From assembly GCA_900095095.1 (NCBI GenBank), contig FMBT01000304.1:62001-126000 (forward strand): a stretch of DNA of 64,000 bases, read 5' to 3'. The stretch is from Fragilariopsis cylindrus CCMP1102. Taxonomy: Eukaryota; Bacillariophyta; Bacillariophyceae; Bacillariales; Bacillariaceae. This document shows, piece by piece, positions 10,263 to 62,086 of this stretch; position 1 is the stretch's first letter; every line of letters begins with the position of its first letter. The position numbers and the translations under genes were made by a program. The notes beneath the pieces are model-generated. The model made no database searches, was not told the origin of the DNA, and saw only the letters and a program-made list of their open reading frames with translations.

Positions 10263-11187
10263 CTAGCTACTAATATTTTTACCAGCGACCTGACACAAAA
10301 TTATCGCGGCATGGTTCACAGCATTCCCATTCAGGTGGACCCACAAGGACAACACAACCATTGCAAATTTTCTCGCTACATCTCCAACAATCCACCATGC
10401 CACAACAAAAGTGATTCTCGCAGTGCTCGCACCATTCCATACTGCAATTATCATCATTGCATCGAATCGATCCGCATTCGTTGCAATTTGTGAAGCATTC
10501 CTCGCAAACGATTTCATCGCACTCTTCGCAAGTACCAGAAAATCTTTCACTTTGCGGATCGAATGTGTTGCTACATTTAGGGCACGGAGTTGCATTATTA
10601 GTTGCGCTGGATAATTGCCTTCGACGAGCAGCAGCAAGCCTTCGGCGATTATCAGAAGGATCAGCTGCGACAGAAGATTTTACTTCCTTTCCTTCATCGT
10701 CTGCAGTGTTTGTATAGTTACTAGTTGTGCTGGATAAATATCTTCGGCGAGCAGCAGCAAGCCTTATGCGATTATCAGAAGGATCAGCTGTGGAAGAAAA
10801 TTTTGCTTCCTTTCCTTCATCGTCTGCGGTGTTTGTATGATTACTAGTTGTGCTGGATAAATATCTTCGGCGAGCAGCAGCAAGCCTTATGCGATTATCA
10901 GAAGGATCAGCTGCGACAGAAAATTCTACTTCCTTTCCTTCATCGTCTACGGTGTTCGTATGATTATTAGTTGCGCTGGATAATAGTCTTCGACGAGCAG
11001 CTGCGGCAAGACTTTGGAGATTGTCATTAGCATACACCATGCTTTTCTTGTTCTCTTTTTCTGCAAGAAAATTGATTTTCTTCGTAGCGCTCTCCAATAG
11101 AAACACGAGGTCTTTGTGAATTGCTCTGCACTCAGTTAATAACTGTGTACTTTTAATCTGATTGATTACAGAAGCTTTGGAATCCAT
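10263..11187 (-). CDS. Cys-rich zinc-binding protein with 41-residue repeats
   Basis: A single exon of about 302 codons beginning ATG at 11187; the coding end lies near 10279. Residues about 1-60 are helical. Three and a half tandem 41-residue (123-bp) repeats follow, each running LSSATNNHTNTxDDEGKE to ADPSDNRIRLAAARRR. The last 100 residues hold about 20 cysteines in CxxC pairs (CPKC, CEEC, CEEC, CNEC, CEHC, CWRC, CEPC), as in RING, B-box or LIM-like zinc folds, but I cannot match a named domain. The repeats are nearly identical at DNA level, suggesting recent expansion. Its role is unknown; the basic RRR clusters would suit nuclear or nucleic-acid contact, which is a guess. Confidence 0.75.
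10640..11010 (-). repeat. 123-bp coding tandem repeat
   Basis: AGCAGCAGCAAGCCTT recurs at exact 123-bp spacing (for example 10749 and 10872) inside the Cys-rich protein gene. The copies differ by only a few bases, and the period is a multiple of three, so copy number can vary without breaking the frame. Confidence 0.8.
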
Positions 11188-12841: not shown

Positions 12842-14143
12842 TTATTTAATTTCGACTTCAACAGGTCGTGATGAAGGTTCACGATCTATATCGCCATCGT
12901 TTTGTGCGCCTTTTCCTCCGATTCCCAATTGGCCATTATCATTCTGACCAAACACAAACACTCGTTCCTTTGATGTGGTCAACACTGTATGTGCATATCC
13001 TGCAGATATACCAATCACTTGGCCCGCATCTGTTGGGATTTCTACCGCGTGTGGTGACAATACGGGTGCACCTTCTTCGCCGTCTGCATCTTTGCTGGAA
13101 ACCCCACACTGGCCGACATCGTTTGCACCAAATGTGTAAGCCACTCCATCATCTCCCAAGACCACACTATGATTAGCACCAGCCGCAATACCTATCGCAT
13201 TTCTACCTTCGGGAAGCACCACGGGAGTTACTGTTTTTCTCGGTTCCGTATCATCAGCCTCGTCGCCATCTTCGTCGATGAGTCGCCCATCACCTCTTTG
13301 ACCTTCTTCACCACAACCCATCGACAACACTTTTCCAGCAGCCGTCTTGACGAGAGTATGGCAATATCCTCCTTCCACGCTTTCTACTACTGTATCTCCA
13401 ATTTCTTTCACTCGGACCATTTCTCGAAGATTGCGAGGTCCTGCTCCGCATTGTTTGTTTTGATTTTCTCCAGCACAATACAATGATCCCGATGAACCAC
13501 CGACAATAGCAAAGGTATTATAAAATCCTGCTCCTATGGCCACTACTTTTTTGTCTTGACCGGAATCATCTATTCCTTGAATCGGAGCAGGTGTGAGATC
13601 GACAGGCAATCCAGAAGAATCGGTGCTGTCGGAGGTGATGTGGCGGCCAAGCTGTCCCAATTGTCCTGCACCAAACGTATACACGATGCCAAGACGAGTC
13701 AACACCACCGAGTGATATGCCCCCGCCGATAGGCTAACGATTGGATCTTTAATGTTGTAAGGGTCGTCTGGTACTAGTGCGATCGGTTGCGGTGGTTCGC
13801 CTAGGTCGGTCGTCGTATTTGCTCTCGGACCCAATGCTGGGATTACACCATCCAGATTGGGCGTTCCATCTTTGGCAAGGTCTACAAATGTCCCACATCC
13901 CCAAGTATACAGTTGACCCTGTGTAGCATCAACCGCTAGATTGTGATAATACGATGCGTGAAACAACCGACAAGGCTTGCTTTCGTCGCCGAGTTTTACT
14001 TTTTGTAAGTGAAATAGTGCCGCGTTCAATGGGTAGTTTCTACACCAACCAAGTCCACATGCCCCGGCCGAGAAGAGCGACTTCGTCTTCGAGTCATAGA
14101 ATAATGTGTGTTCCCCACCAGCAGATGCAGAAGTTTCGACCAT
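12842..14143 (-). CDS. RCC1-repeat beta-propeller protein
   Basis: A single exon of 433 residues. The first true ATG is 14143-14141 (MVETSASAGGEH); the open frame extends slightly upstream only through a GTG. Successive RCC1 blades are visible: GGEHTLFYD, YTWGCGTF, AYHSVVLTRLGIVYTFGAGQ, GLYCAGENQNKQCG, CHTLVKTAAGKVLSMGCGEE, NHSVVLGDDGVAYTFGAND, AHTVLTTSKERVFVFGQNDN. This is about the seven blades expected for one propeller. RCC1-like propellers serve as Ran exchange factors, ubiquitin-ligase parts or generic scaffolds; without the RCC1 exchange loop clearly visible I assign only the fold. Codon use is less repeat-laden than in its neighbours, and no signal peptide is seen. Confidence 0.88.
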   Translation of the reverse strand: MVETSASAGGEHTLFYDSKTKSLFSAGACGLGWCRNYPLNAALFHLQKVKLGDESKPCRLFHASYYHNLAVDATQGQLYTWGCGTFVDLAKDGTPNLDGVIPALGPRANTTTDLGEPPQPIALVPDDPYNIKDPIVSLSAGAYHSVVLTRLGIVYTFGAGQLGQLGRHITSDSTDSSGLPVDLTPAPIQGIDDSGQDKKVVAIGAGFYNTFAIVGGSSGSLYCAGENQNKQCGAGPRNLREMVRVKEIGDTVVESVEGGYCHTLVKTAAGKVLSMGCGEEGQRGDGRLIDEDGDEADDTEPRKTVTPVVLPEGRNAIGIAAGANHSVVLGDDGVAYTFGANDVGQCGVSSKDADGEEGAPVLSPHAVEIPTDAGQVIGISAGYAHTVLTTSKERVFVFGQNDNGQLGIGGKGAQNDGDIDREPSSRPVEVEIK

Positions 14144-14157
14144 GTCCACACACTCTT

Positions 14158-14370
14158 ACAACGTAGACTTGCTATCTGTGATTCGAAGGGCAGTCTTCGT
14201 CGGGAAGTAATGTATTAACGCATCATTATTCTCCAATAAAGGTAATAATGATTGATTCTACAACGTACAACGTAGACTTGCTGTGATTCGAAGGGCAGTC
14301 TTCGTCGGCAAGTAATGTATTACTGCTGCACATCATTATTCTCAATAAAGGTAACTTAATCATGATTCTA
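14158..14370. repeat. Tandem duplication of about 105 bp upstream of the RCC1 gene
   Basis: ACAACGTAGACTTGCT, TGTGATTCGAAGGGCAGTCT, AGTAATGTATTA and CAATAAAGGTAA occur in the same order in two adjacent copies, with the second diverged by small indels. The copies cover the probable RCC1 promoter. Confidence 0.75.
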
Positions 14371-14679
14371 AAGCGACTGCTGTGCGTCACTCGTGCGTGT
14401 TTGAGAATGATACATGACTCACTCATGCGCGCACAAATTCAAATCGCGCGATGTTACTTGGTACTGTACTTTTGTTCCCGGATGAGGATAACGTGGTTGA
14501 TGAATTTTTGAATTGCTTTTTAAGACCTACTAGCGCGAGAAAAAACCTGTCCTCGGAAAAACCTGTCCCAAAAAAGTGACGATCGCGCACCTCAAAAAAG
14601 TTATCAATCACCCAACCACCCTTTTTTTTGCTTTGCTAAATCTTTATTATTTTTTATTACATTACTTCCTAATGGATTT

Positions 14680-15340
14680 GACCATGGTGGCTCAATTTTA
14701 GACTACTTCCAATGAATGAATATAAACAAAACCACTTTCGTTCAAACAAGCTACTCAACTACTACTGTTGCTATCATTTTCTGGTTCAAAGTCCAGTTTT
14801 TGAAGCCAAAATATTATTTATTACTAAGCAGGGACTGTTGGTGAAGCAGATCAGTCATTGACCATGGTGGCTCAATTTCAGACCACTTCCAATGAATGAA
14901 TATAAACGAAACCACTTTCATTCGAACAAGCAACTCAACCACTACAGTTGCGCTCCTCTTCTGGTTCAAAGTCCTATTTTTGATGCCAAAATATTATTTA
15001 TCACTAAGCAGGGACTGCTGGTGAAGCAGATCATTCATTGACCATGGTGGCTCAATTTTAGACCACTTCCAATGAATGAATATAAACGAAACCACTTTCA
15101 TTCGAACAAGCAACTCAACTACTACAGTTGCGCTCCTCTTCTGGTTCAAAGTCCTATTTTTGAAGCCAAAATATTATTTATTCCTAAGCAGGGACTGTTG
15201 GTGAAGCAGATTAGTCATTGATCATGGTGGCTCAATTTTAGACCACTTCCAATGAATGAATACAATCGAAACCACTTTCATTCGAACAACAATCTCAAAT
15301 ACTACTGAAGCTCTCATTTTCTGGTTCTAAGTCCGTCAAC
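14680..15340. repeat. 180-bp tandem array, about 3.6 copies
   Basis: GACCATGGTGGCTCAATTT begins copies at 14680, 14860, 15040 and (as GATCATGG) 15220, an exact 180-bp period. Each copy ends with AAGCAGGGACTG and GTGAAGCAGAT. Copies differ at only a few sites. The array lies inside the transposon-like unit, just downstream of its gene. Confidence 0.92.
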
Positions 15341-15417
15341 ATATCACAATTCAACAATCAACCAAAGGTATGTCATAAAAATGAATTAAATATATATATT
15401 ATTTGTATTGTTAAATG

Positions 15418-17451
15418 TTAATCTTGTCCGTAGAACCCATGGCATGATTCAAATCCTGGATTCAATGACACACAATCATGTGACGACAACATGAGATCAT
15501 ATACGAGCTCAAATAAATATGCAACTAACATAAGACGTTTGTCTTTTTCTGTTCCAGTAACTTTCCATTTTTTGATAGCATCCAAAGTAATATCATCCCA
15601 ATCCAATATACCATTACCAGATGTATCTACCAGACGTTCTGTATTTGATCTATCAAAACCTAAGCCACAAAACGATGATAGATGGTCAAAATACCCAATA
15701 CGGGATCCTTCTGAAATATTTGGATTTGATTTATGAGGATATTTACCATATGACCCTTTGCTGCTTCTTTTTGCTTCCTTTTCATGAAATTTAATTCTTT
15801 CATGCATTACGGTGGGTGAAGCTTTACCACTGCGTACAAAGCAACCCCTCTGGTTATCATAAAACAAATAACAGCCTTCCAAAATTGAATCTGGTGCAAT
15901 GACATGAAATCCATGGATAGATACTGATAGCAATGATTCTGTCACTCGAACAGCAGAAAGATCTTTCTTGATATGGCATGCCAAGCAACTAATAAGAGAG
16001 ACCTTCGTAAACTGTTTCCTGGCCCATCTAAAACACCAATGAACCCAGTACATAGGATCTGGGATTCTTTTTAGGTGAACGTCCATTCTTACTTCCAAAT
16101 GGGTTGCCAATCTTTCTGCCTGTTGAACCAGTTCAATTGTTATATCAGCAGCGTACCTTACACCACACACTTCATTTCTGACTGCTGCTATCCATTCTTC
16201 TTTCTCTGACAAGGATTTTACTGACGGTTGATGATAAGGGACAGTTGCTGTACATATAGTTCCCAGTACGGTAGGACGAACACCAACAACTGTCAACGGA
16301 TCTTGTTGTTCTGTATTGGCTTCTATAGACCTCAGAATCACAGGCATGTGTTTTACTTTCATTGCATGTACCAGGGTGGTGTCTTCGCCAGCTTCAGCCG
16401 AAATTATTGTGCCCTTTTTGACGTCCTTAAACTTAATGCCATTCCATTCAGCATCAGCTGGTCTGGAGGGTGTTGTAAATAGTCTGCAATGTACAAAAGC
16501 TTTTAGTGTTGGAGCTTTACAGGTAAAGAAATTATCAAAAGTGGCAGTCAACAAATCAGCAGGAAGTTTTGATTCACATGATGCATTATCAGTAAGTAAA
16601 GTCTTGACTTTGTTATCTTTGTCTACTTTCTTTATCCTTGCTATCTCGCCTTGTTGTTGTAGTTTCAGATTGCGTGCAAGTCTGATTGGTTCTGAAGAAT
16701 AACACATTGCTCTCCCATGTACAATCGCTAAGGATCGTCTTGGTCTTACTTTACCTTTTCTATCCTCATCCTCAGAAAAGCCAAGCTCATCAAAAAGTTC
16801 CTCCGGTATTTTTCCGTGACTTACAAATGCATCATATAAGGTATTGAAATGGGTTTTGATAAGTTCTACTTCTGTCACTGCTACTGGACGTCTGCAAGTT
16901 CCAATGATTTTGTCAAAGTCGGGCCATGTTTCGCTTTCCCTATCAACAGCACCCCCTTCTACAAATCCTTGAATCACTCCACTTGGTGTTACACTCCTAA
17001 ACAGAAGTTCAGGTAAACATACAATGAAATCAATGATGCAATGCAGTTTGTCTCGGCTGAATTTGATATCACCCTTTTTATCGAGTTCCATTATGGCATC
17101 GTAGATCTTTTTCTTGAATCCCTTACATGGTCTGCTCTTTGCGGTTAAAGTTTTTACAATGCGATGTACATTCTTGAAGATTTTTGCTAGATCTAAGTAT
17201 TGTTCAGCACCACTTCTACTTGCTGAATGTTTGCACAATGTAAGTAGTAAATTATCAGCCGCCACCAGAGAGTCTTCCTCCAACAGATGCATCATCACAA
17301 TATGCTGCAGCATCAAGAAGAGATAAGGCAGCATGTAGAGGGTTGTTGGATGTTGGTTCTTTGATGGTAGCCATTTTGTTGTATCAGTAATGGAATTTAT
17401 GAGAGAAGAAGTGTGTAGGAAAGTTTGATGAACAATTGAACAATGAGGCAA
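15418..17451 (-). CDS. Transposon-borne protein with C-terminal GIY-YIG-like nuclease domain
   Basis: The open frame is 677 codons; its first codon is TTG. The first in-frame ATG is at 17334, giving about 638 residues, unless an upstream exon supplies the start. The last 150 residues resemble a GIY-YIG endonuclease: GCYLFYD (GIY strand), CFVRSGKAS (YIG strand), an Arg/His helix HERIKFH, then LFELVYDL (the catalytic Glu) and LNPGFES (the Asn). Upstream are helical regions without a recognised fold (about residues 60-330) and a beta-rich middle (ILRSIEAN, GTICTATVPYHQ). Codon use lacks the trinucleotide runs of the host genes nearby. The gene sits alone inside the inverted-repeat unit, so a role in moving that unit is plausible but unproven. 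No DDE triad or HUH motif is seen. Confidence 0.7.
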   Translation of the reverse strand: MPHCSIVHQTFLHTSSLINSITDTTKWLPSKNQHPTTLYMLPYLFLMLQHIVMMHLLEEDSLVAADNLLLTLCKHSASRSGAEQYLDLAKIFKNVHRIVKTLTAKSRPCKGFKKKIYDAIMELDKKGDIKFSRDKLHCIIDFIVCLPELLFRSVTPSGVIQGFVEGGAVDRESETWPDFDKIIGTCRRPVAVTEVELIKTHFNTLYDAFVSHGKIPEELFDELGFSEDEDRKGKVRPRRSLAIVHGRAMCYSSEPIRLARNLKLQQQGEIARIKKVDKDNKVKTLLTDNASCESKLPADLLTATFDNFFTCKAPTLKAFVHCRLFTTPSRPADAEWNGIKFKDVKKGTIISAEAGEDTTLVHAMKVKHMPVILRSIEANTEQQDPLTVVGVRPTVLGTICTATVPYHQPSVKSLSEKEEWIAAVRNEVCGVRYAADITIELVQQAERLATHLEVRMDVHLKRIPDPMYWVHWCFRWARKQFTKVSLISCLACHIKKDLSAVRVTESLLSVSIHGFHVIAPDSILEGCYLFYDNQRGCFVRSGKASPTVMHERIKFHEKEAKRSSKGSYGKYPHKSNPNISEGSRIGYFDHLSSFCGLGFDRSNTERLVDTSGNGILDWDDITLDAIKKWKVTGTEKDKRLMLVAYLFELVYDLMLSSHDCVSLNPGFESCHGFYGQD

Positions 17452-17783
17452 TTTGTTTTGTTTTACCTCAGAGTTGCTGAGTCAGAAAGAATGCTGAGAG
17501 TTCCCACCCAAATAGAATTTTTTAGTTAGACTAAAAACTAGAATGTGTGATTAACATCCAAGGCCGCCTGTCTTCCCTCTCAATTTTGAATGAGATTCTC
17601 AAGTAGGCAGGTATTAGTCCCTCAAAGGGAAAAGCCCACCACACCCTTCCCTCCTCATTCAAATCCCATAGTATATATACTACTGTACTATGACGTTATG
17701 TGCCCCTATCATCATAAAATGGGATGTTCGTACCTCATGTATACTACGCGTCCGTGTGCGTAGTCTGTCCATTGATATATAAC

Positions 17784-17813
17784 ATATGTATATGTATATG
17801 TATATGTATATAT
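17784..17813. repeat. TATATG/ATATGT microsatellite
   Basis: Short repeated TATATG units within a long AT-rich arm of the transposon-like unit (17500-18300), which otherwise has no ORF. Confidence 0.7.
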
Positions 17814-18369
17814 AGTCCTACTATATATACTATGTACTATATATAACAAGTAGTTTGGAGCCATGTTGCATGCACATCATACTGCGCTAACTACCGATAC
17901 TATGCTCATCACACATATTATTACATGCATACTACTAGACACTATCTATCTCACATATGTATACATGTAAGTATCATGCATATGTCCATGTATGTTTCTA
18001 TGTATACATATATATAATGATTATATGTGTGCACCTAGATATACTACATGTAGCTGTCTAATACATATATTGTTATAATAAATAATAATATTGAAGTATT
18101 AGTAATAGTAGTTAGATGTCAATCTATTGTAGTCTTAAGTATATATATAGAACGTACTACATACATTTTGAATGCAGTCCTATGTATTATCTTTCTATGT
18201 ATATGGAGTATAATGGTAGGACCATATCTGTGTTTGTTGTATGTTTTTGCATAAGAAGAGCTTGTTATTACTATTTTATTTTATTATTCGCGTACATTTA
18301 CTAGTAATTTGCACCTAAAAACGGTTGACGTACGGACAACCTGTCCGGACAGGTTTTTTCTCGCGCTAG

Positions 18370-18628
18370 CCTACCGGTATTGATTCGTAGTGAGAGATAG
18401 TTTTTGGACGATAACACCGGTATTATTACTCTCTGGATCACGCCTCCTAGATAAAACATTGAAAGACAGATGATTAGAAACAAATAGCATTTTCCACGTA
18501 TTATGAATAAATGGGGAATTGTAAAATAGTATAACGAGTAGTAGAGCTTGTACATTTTCAAGTAGAGGAAAAAAATAATCATTAATATATAGAGGAAAAA
18601 AATAATCATTAATTTACAATTGTTTTCA
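18370..18628. other. Short spacer and golgin 3' region
   Basis: The segment AGAGGAAAAAAATAATCATT is duplicated in tandem (about 18563-18612) just after the golgin stop codon on the minus strand. No gene. Confidence 0.5.
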
Positions 18629-22581: not shown

Positions 22582-23100
22582 CCACAAAATGTCTCATTTG
22601 AAAGGGTTGCAGAGGACAACACCAAATAGGCCGGTTGCACTAACATCCACATAGTGTACTAGAACACTGTGTTTGTCTCCTACAACTTTTCTGTTCCTAT
22701 GGTTAAAGAATAAAATTCATTTCACTTTTGTGGCATGCACAAAAACAATGATTCTTGACCAGAAATGAACCACAAAATATCTCATTTGGAAGGGTTGCAG
22801 AGGACAACACTAGATGAGTCAGGTGCAAAAATATTCACATAGTGTACTAGAACATTGTATTTGCCTCCTACCACTTTTCTATTCCTGTGGTTAAGGAATA
22901 AAATCCATTTCATTTTTGTGGCAAGCAAAACAATAATAAGATTTTGGATTAGAAATGAACCACAAAATATCTCATTTGAAAGGGTTGCAGACAACAGCAC
23001 CAGCTGGGTCAGGTGCAAAAACATTCACATAGTGTACTACAACTTTCCTCTTCCTGTGGTTAAGGAATAAAAGTTGTTTTGCTGTTGTGGTAGGCACAAA
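22582..23100. repeat. About 190-bp tandem repeat, three units
   Basis: CCACAAAATATCTCATTTGA starts units at 22582, 22770 and 22960 (spacing 188 and 190 bp). Each continues with GGGTTGCAGAGGACAACACC, ACATAGTGTACTA and a TTCCTGTGGTTAAGGAATAA block. Inverted copies of the same unit occur at 43095-43540 and 44255-44490. Confidence 0.88.
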
Positions 23101-61741: not shown

Positions 61742-62086
61742 AATGATTATAAATTTTACTTAAATGTATTTAAAATGAGGATAGCATTGTTGATAGAATG
61801 CGAGAGATGGAGAAACGAAGGAAGGAATGAGAAATAATCCCCGCCTTGCGTATCCATACAGTATAAATTTACTGCATCTGATTTGTGTACAATTCAAATA
61901 ACATTCTACTTCTTGTTTTATGTGGTACATATCATTATAACATCGAAATCATGACGTTGTTGTTGAAGATTCGGGTGCAACGGCGGATAGAGCGAGAGAA
62001 AACAATGCATACATTCTCGCCCGGTCAAACACCCTCTTACTGTGACTGTGACTGTCATATTCACTGTTAATATCAAATTCATTTTC
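61742..62086. other. Intergenic spacer
   Basis: TGTGACTGTGACTGTCATAT-type direct repeats near 62041 lie at the 3' side of the LRR gene. No gene. Confidence 0.4.

Follow-up and report, generated by a model that had tools for sequence, protein, structure and literature searches.

The stretch of DNA analysed here (the window, 64,000 nucleotides) comes from contig FMBT01000304.1 of the diatom Fragilariopsis cylindrus CCMP1102 (positions 62,001 to 126,000, forward strand; G000:C464:62001-126000), and its subject is an insertion at 14530-18369 that a first-pass annotation, made from the letters of the sequence, described as a transposon-like unit of no recognised family. Based on its ends, its target site duplications (TSDs), its other copies in the genome, an internal deletion, the homology of two protein halves and the empty site of a sister element, all of them read from the sequence, this unit very probably derives by internal deletion from a cut-and-paste DNA transposon and is non-autonomous.

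Ends, copies and target sites

The unit is bounded by perfect 23-bp inverted repeats with CCTA directly outside both of them, at the positions given by the first-pass annotation (Table 1). With up to three mismatches allowed, the end 23-mer matched the window only at these two places, and none of 100 shuffles of the window contained any match. The same search, extended to the genome (67.9 Mb in 818 contigs) with the reversed pattern as control, returned 12 matches vs 0 for the control, corresponding to five pairs and two single ends (C297 and C566). The pairs delimit the window unit, a longer copy at C421:34456-39566 and three miniatures of 611-613 bp (C149, C324, and C367). Across 2761 bp C421 displayed 99.5% identity to the window unit, falling to 88% in the final 1.1 kb, where indels are numerous; the flanks of the window unit (2 kb per side) did not match the 10-kb C421 locus, evidencing that the similarity ends at the inverted ends. 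The miniatures resemble the window unit over ~45 bp of one terminus and ~75 bp of the opposite one, and in no other clear stretch. Further copies with the same ends, which the first-pass annotation proposed to search for, are thus present at unrelated sites and mostly with a different 4-bp flank, and neither of the outcomes that it regarded as fatal was observed: a second copy exists, and its similarity to the window unit stops at the ends.

A search of the genome with the window protein detected, besides C421, two weakly related loci, C163 and C206. The element at C206:50965-55865 (L054:3466-8366) has an intact open frame of 1191 residues, and its limits are marked by inverted repeats of 24 bp without mismatch (CTACGCGCGTTGGAAACTGGGAAT) and by the 4-bp repeat AAAT. 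Its end, searched likewise with up to three mismatches, matched the genome 22 times (control, 0), and these matches represent six pairs, namely C206 and five miniatures of 556-609 bp, as well as 10 single ends. C206 is hereafter the representative of this sister family.

A perfect 4-bp duplication was found in all 11 elements having both ends, a count that covers paired elements and leaves aside the 12 single ends (two of the window family and 10 of the sister family). In the window family the TSDs are CCTA (window and C421, in the window's orientation) and, in the miniatures, CACA, CAGT, and TTCG; in the sister family, as read on the contigs, they are AAAT for C206 and CATT, GATT, TATT, AGTG, and TACT for the miniatures. 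A chance arrangement of inverted repeats and CCTA, or a segmental duplication in place of a transposon, could draw only on the CCTA common to the two long copies; against 12 end matches vs none for the reversed control, 11 TSDs in 11 elements, flanks that differ and the related empty site of the sister element (see below), such an origin has a negligible probability.

The two ends of these elements are not alike. At one end of all 11 paired elements a subterminal motif forms a palindrome of 18-20 bp, and at the opposite end, as judged by eye, it is present as a direct repeat, while the elements start with CTA(G)CGCG... and finish with ...CGCG(C)TAG. With respect to the gene, the two long elements are arranged in opposite ways, the palindrome being on the 5' side in the window unit and on the 3' side in C206. 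When the TSD is read from the palindromic end, its second base is A in 10 of the 11 paired elements (binomial p 6e-5, before allowing for position choice). Of the 12 single ends, 11 were read and, after one allele had been set aside, represent 10 distinct loci; the script found A in this position in six of these (p 0.05) and inspection by eye in seven, the difference being due to two decayed palindromes typed as direct ends. A polar target preference with A as second base is therefore suggestive.

When the flanks of C206 were joined at one AAAT, the resulting sequence matched other copies of a ~195-bp dispersed repeat across the junction, with at least 11 copies of about 190 bp at 92-98% identity (40 of 58 candidates were scored). 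Base by base, the copy in C299 is identical at 58 of 62 positions, unbroken across the C206 junction. This is a precise empty site for C206, of paralogous type. The first-pass annotation had asked for an empty site of the window element itself; what the check provided is this related site, with a single AAAT, for the sister. In addition, C678:90108-90520 matches the outer flanks of the C206 site and is devoid of the ~195-bp host repeat, and may be an allele or a paralogue. Altogether, the same ends at other sites, the similarity that stops at these ends and the paralogous empty site of the sister bear out the footprint of a cut-and-paste insertion that had been recognised in the window.

A putative transposase gene in two halves

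The long open frame of the window unit is homologous, in its residues 68-675, to the part of the C206 protein that spans residues 566-1191 (E 7e-23, 21% identity); residues 1-565 of the C206 protein had no significant match within the window unit. C421 holds a 441-codon frame, starting with MATIKEPTSNN, that corresponds to the N-terminal half, and in a global alignment the N-halves of C421 and C206 scored above all 100 shuffles. The ATG at 17374 in the window is the ATG of this C421 frame: 94 bp are identical and then the alignment jumps by 1281 bp, with CTGTTG at both deletion points. Based on these alignments, the "gene" of the window unit is a remnant that corresponds to the C-terminal half of a transposase: C421 keeps the 1281 bp lost in the window, and the native start is now out of frame; the window copy is non-autonomous. 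Of the single long gene noticed at first pass the open frame persists, though as a remnant and not as an intact gene.

The possibility that the 677-codon frame is instead a functional accessory or domesticated gene, which its length without a stop might suggest, is very improbable considering that homology begins in the middle of the sister protein, that the native ATG runs out of frame after 31 residues, that the deletion joins two 6-bp repeats and that in C421 the homologous sequence is distributed over several frames. Since the parts of the gene in C421 lie in different frames, this copy is broken too. The reverse interpretation, in which C421 would be a unit with a nested insertion, was rejected: the extra 1281 bp are an open N-half frame from the shared ATG, so that the deletion is assigned to the window copy. 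An early idea that the 677-codon frame encodes a GIY-YIG nuclease was dropped, as it had no Pfam match.

The only intact long frame seen is that of C206. Compared with its relative in C163 it gave a ratio of nonsynonymous to synonymous substitution rates (dN/dS) of 0.28 over 320 codons, which fits a protein once kept functional. C163 and C44 carry degraded relatives of C206 with stops (64-90% identity by segment), and these two are probably alleles, as suggested by the same 20 bp outside one end. In the QPMD motif of these relatives, which contains the putative third catalytic D, this residue is N in C163 (QPMN; L055:8563-9549) and D is kept in C44.

Table 1. Features of the insertion, in window coordinates.
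Feature	Position	Strand	Basis or remark
Left TSD CCTA, 4 bp	14526..14529		Sequence; abuts left end
Left terminal inverted repeat, 23 bp (CTAGCGCGAGAAAAAACCTGTCC; inverted without mismatch at right end)	14530..14552	+	Sequence and genome matches of the end
Left subterminal direct repeat, two copies of AAAAACCTGTCC (14541-14552, 14557-14568)	14541..14568	+	Sequence, by eye; "direct" end, both families
180-bp tandem array, 3.7 copies	14678..15334		Unit resembles dispersed genome repeat
677-codon open frame, C-terminal half of putative transposase	15418..17451	-	Alignment with C206 protein; out of frame with native start
Native start codon (17374) and 94 bp to deletion point	17281..17374	-	First 31 residues native; out of frame thereafter, with stop after 39
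Junction of 1281-bp internal deletion (relative to C421), 6-bp microhomology CTGTTG	17280..17281
18-bp palindrome AACCTGTCCGGACAGGTT	18338..18355		Sequence; "palindromic" end, both families
Right terminal inverted repeat, 23 bp	18347..18369	-	Sequence and genome matches of the end
Right TSD CCTA, 4 bp	18370..18373		Sequence; abuts right end

The satellite-like array seen at first pass is the tandem array of Table 1. It is also present in C421 and is accordingly older than the divergence of the two long copies. A search with the array unit yielded 62 candidates, 40 of which were scored and six aligned; apart from the long copies, a match to the unit, usually about 160-220 bp long, was obtained at 38 of the 40 scored places. 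In our reading, the array would have arisen within the element by tandem amplification of part of a dispersed repeat.

Other repeats were observed in the neighbourhood. Just left of the insertion, a 105-bp tandem duplication (14157-14370) adjoins the 5' end of an RCC1-like frame (12842-14149, minus strand), and further tandem arrays of the window are located at 22582-23043 (period 188 bp) and 10594-11001 (period 123 bp).

Nature of the enzyme and classification

Inspection by eye of the C206 protein located NYDFTSTFFWDG, RIHVDSDMQQI, and TTMCYQPMDVGEFFK in DDD order, and C421 contains, likewise ordered, STDDSG, SCSDGG (read in a different frame), and QYLD. A QPxD..FK motif marks the third catalytic residue of pogo-type enzymes. 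Two other proteins encoded in the genome have a borderline match to Pfam DDE_1, one of 872 residues in C307 (L088:1114-3732; 23 bits vs a cut-off of 22, residues 430-529) and one of 620 residues in C354 (L089:1127-2989). The first contains TTHITQPTDQNYGMFK at residue 505, inside its DDE_1 match; by the same patterns a TTMCYQPMDVGEFFK-like motif was absent from the second. These two frames may represent further little-described transposase groups of this genome. On the strength of the motifs, a DDE/D enzyme is likely for the element group. The first-pass annotation took the fact that no DDE core was visible in the window gene as a clue to the family; that observation turned out to be uninformative, because the gene is a C-terminal half only.

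Searches beyond the genome contributed little. The best sequence match among solved structures (PDB) had an E of 0.12, all matches there being weak; a structure prediction of the window frame alone had a mean predicted local distance difference test score (pLDDT) of 36 and was unusable; and no relatives were confirmed in viral contigs or in bacterial and archaeal genome contigs. Membership in DDE_1 is unsupported by sequence, as the C206 protein had no Pfam match and its alignments with DDE_1 proteins, a weak test, were not significant.

Several results weigh against the interpretation given above. Regarding the element, both long copies (window and C421) encode broken proteins, and within the window family a source of transposase was not found; the two long copies have the same TSD, CCTA, at unrelated sites; and for the window site this assembly contains the filled site only, with no empty allele. 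In local alignment the N-halves of C421 and C206 gave no clear match, 22 of 300 shuffles being as good. Regarding the enzyme, the catalytic core rests on motifs: among 20000 shuffles of the C206 protein, the strict form of TTMCYQPMDVGEFFK was present in one and a looser form in 32, both patterns having been written after the sequence was seen. The curated domain models (Pfam and NCBIfam) gave no accepted match to the proteins, with one Pfam match of the C421 frame below the cut-off (E 0.09) and two matches in PHROGs (E 0.37-0.4). Comparison of C206 with C307 by hhalign gave probabilities of 0.1-0.3%, and in local alignment 165 of 300 shuffles did as well as C206 against C307, and 23 of 300 as well as C206 against C354. 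As a control of power, C307 and C354 were aligned with each other and were equalled by 43 of 300 shuffles locally and 1 of 100 globally, so that the DDE_1 alignment test has little power.

This last result bears on the proposal that the group is a far member of pogo within IS630-Tc1-mariner whose target cut changed from TA to a variable 4-bp sequence, which we regard as rather unlikely. The QPxD..FK-like motif found by eye after two other acidic motifs is a point of resemblance, TTMCYQPMDVGEFFK recalls the TTHITQPTDQNYGMFK that lies inside the DDE_1 match of C307, and the putative D2-D3 spacing, about 37-40 by eye, falls within the DD29-56D described for pogo in PMC7386202. However, the same paper gives TA, TAA or TAAA as pogo TSDs (TAA and TAAA in Fot and Fot-like elements), whereas those observed here are variable 4-mers, four of 11 beginning with TA on one strand (CCTA/TAGG twice, TATT, and TACT) and none being TAAA. 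Moreover, the C206 protein has no Pfam DDE_1 match at E up to 10 and is not among the eight DDE_1 places of the genome, and its alignments with DDE_1 proteins do not rise above shuffles, with the weak control just mentioned.

On paper, TSD length and enzyme type fit Sola best, in a comparison made between descriptions. According to PMC10741241, Sola elements encode a DDD transposase, produce 4-bp TSDs, mostly measure 2-9 kb and have terminal inverted repeats very variable in sequence and length. All 11 TSDs of 4 bp, the several-kb size, the variable inverted ends and a D as putative third catalytic residue agree with this description of Sola1, Sola2, and Sola3. Conversely, Sola2-type elements have AT-rich TSDs such as AWWT in PMC3627910, unlike CCTA, CACA, CAGT, TTCG, and AGTG in our group, and the assignment to a divergent branch of the Sola superfamily is rather unlikely.

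Other systems that make short duplications differ in their enzymes or ends. The first-pass annotation noted that the enzymes of Ginger and Academ are not visible in the window, and this extends to the sister: Pfam gave neither an integrase nor an XPG nuclease in the 1191-residue C206 protein. Ginger1/2 produce TSDs of about 4 bp (PMC10045372), but have TG...CA ends of 40-270 bp (PMC10741241) vs CTA...TAG and 23-24 bp in this group, which had no integrase domain match. Academ (AcademX) is similar in its 3-4-bp TSD (also PMC10045372), and unlike it the C206 protein, the one intact protein, has no XPG or helicase domain match. Some families of IS481EU also have 4-bp TSDs, and those of Trichomonas have TNT...AYA ends (PMC10045372) in contrast to CTA...TAG, without a domain match here. 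None of the 11 TSDs in our elements is TTAA. That sequence is the target of piggyBac, Kolobok, and Sola3, from which the group differs in this respect.

No published description of these ends or of this family was found in the titles and abstract openings surveyed. The suggestion of a new DNA transposon family fits the material searched, in which Sola was represented by descriptions. A new superfamily among the eukaryotic cut-and-paste transposons is possible. In the form put forward here tentatively, with less than even confidence, it would have a transposase of ~1200 residues that combines a DDD core of degenerate, pogo-like type with a large new C-region, asymmetric CTA...TAG ends and a polar 4-bp target with A second.

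Proposed movement and significance

Based on the available evidence, a model can be proposed in which the full element, of about 5 kb, would have one direct-repeat end, one palindromic end and a single long gene encoding a transposase of about 1200 residues. We infer a cut-and-paste chemistry carried out by a DDE/D enzyme: the transposase would bind the subterminal motifs and then excise the element, which would be joined to a target cut with a 4-bp stagger, and repair would generate the 4-bp duplication. The window copy lost 1281 bp of the gene by deletion between two copies of CTGTTG, and with them the N-terminal part and the greater share of the putative catalytic part; its later movement, if any, would have needed a transposase from elsewhere, as must that of the ~600-bp miniatures.

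The group brings together two families, one intact candidate transposase frame (C206), miniatures and an exact empty site, all in one genome, and it escaped recognition by all of the domain libraries searched. If a pogo-like core and a 4-bp cut are indeed united in this enzyme, the length of the target cut would be tied to the transposase lineage in a testable manner. The recurring asymmetry of the ends, together with the possible polar target, suggests that the two ends may be handled differently at insertion.

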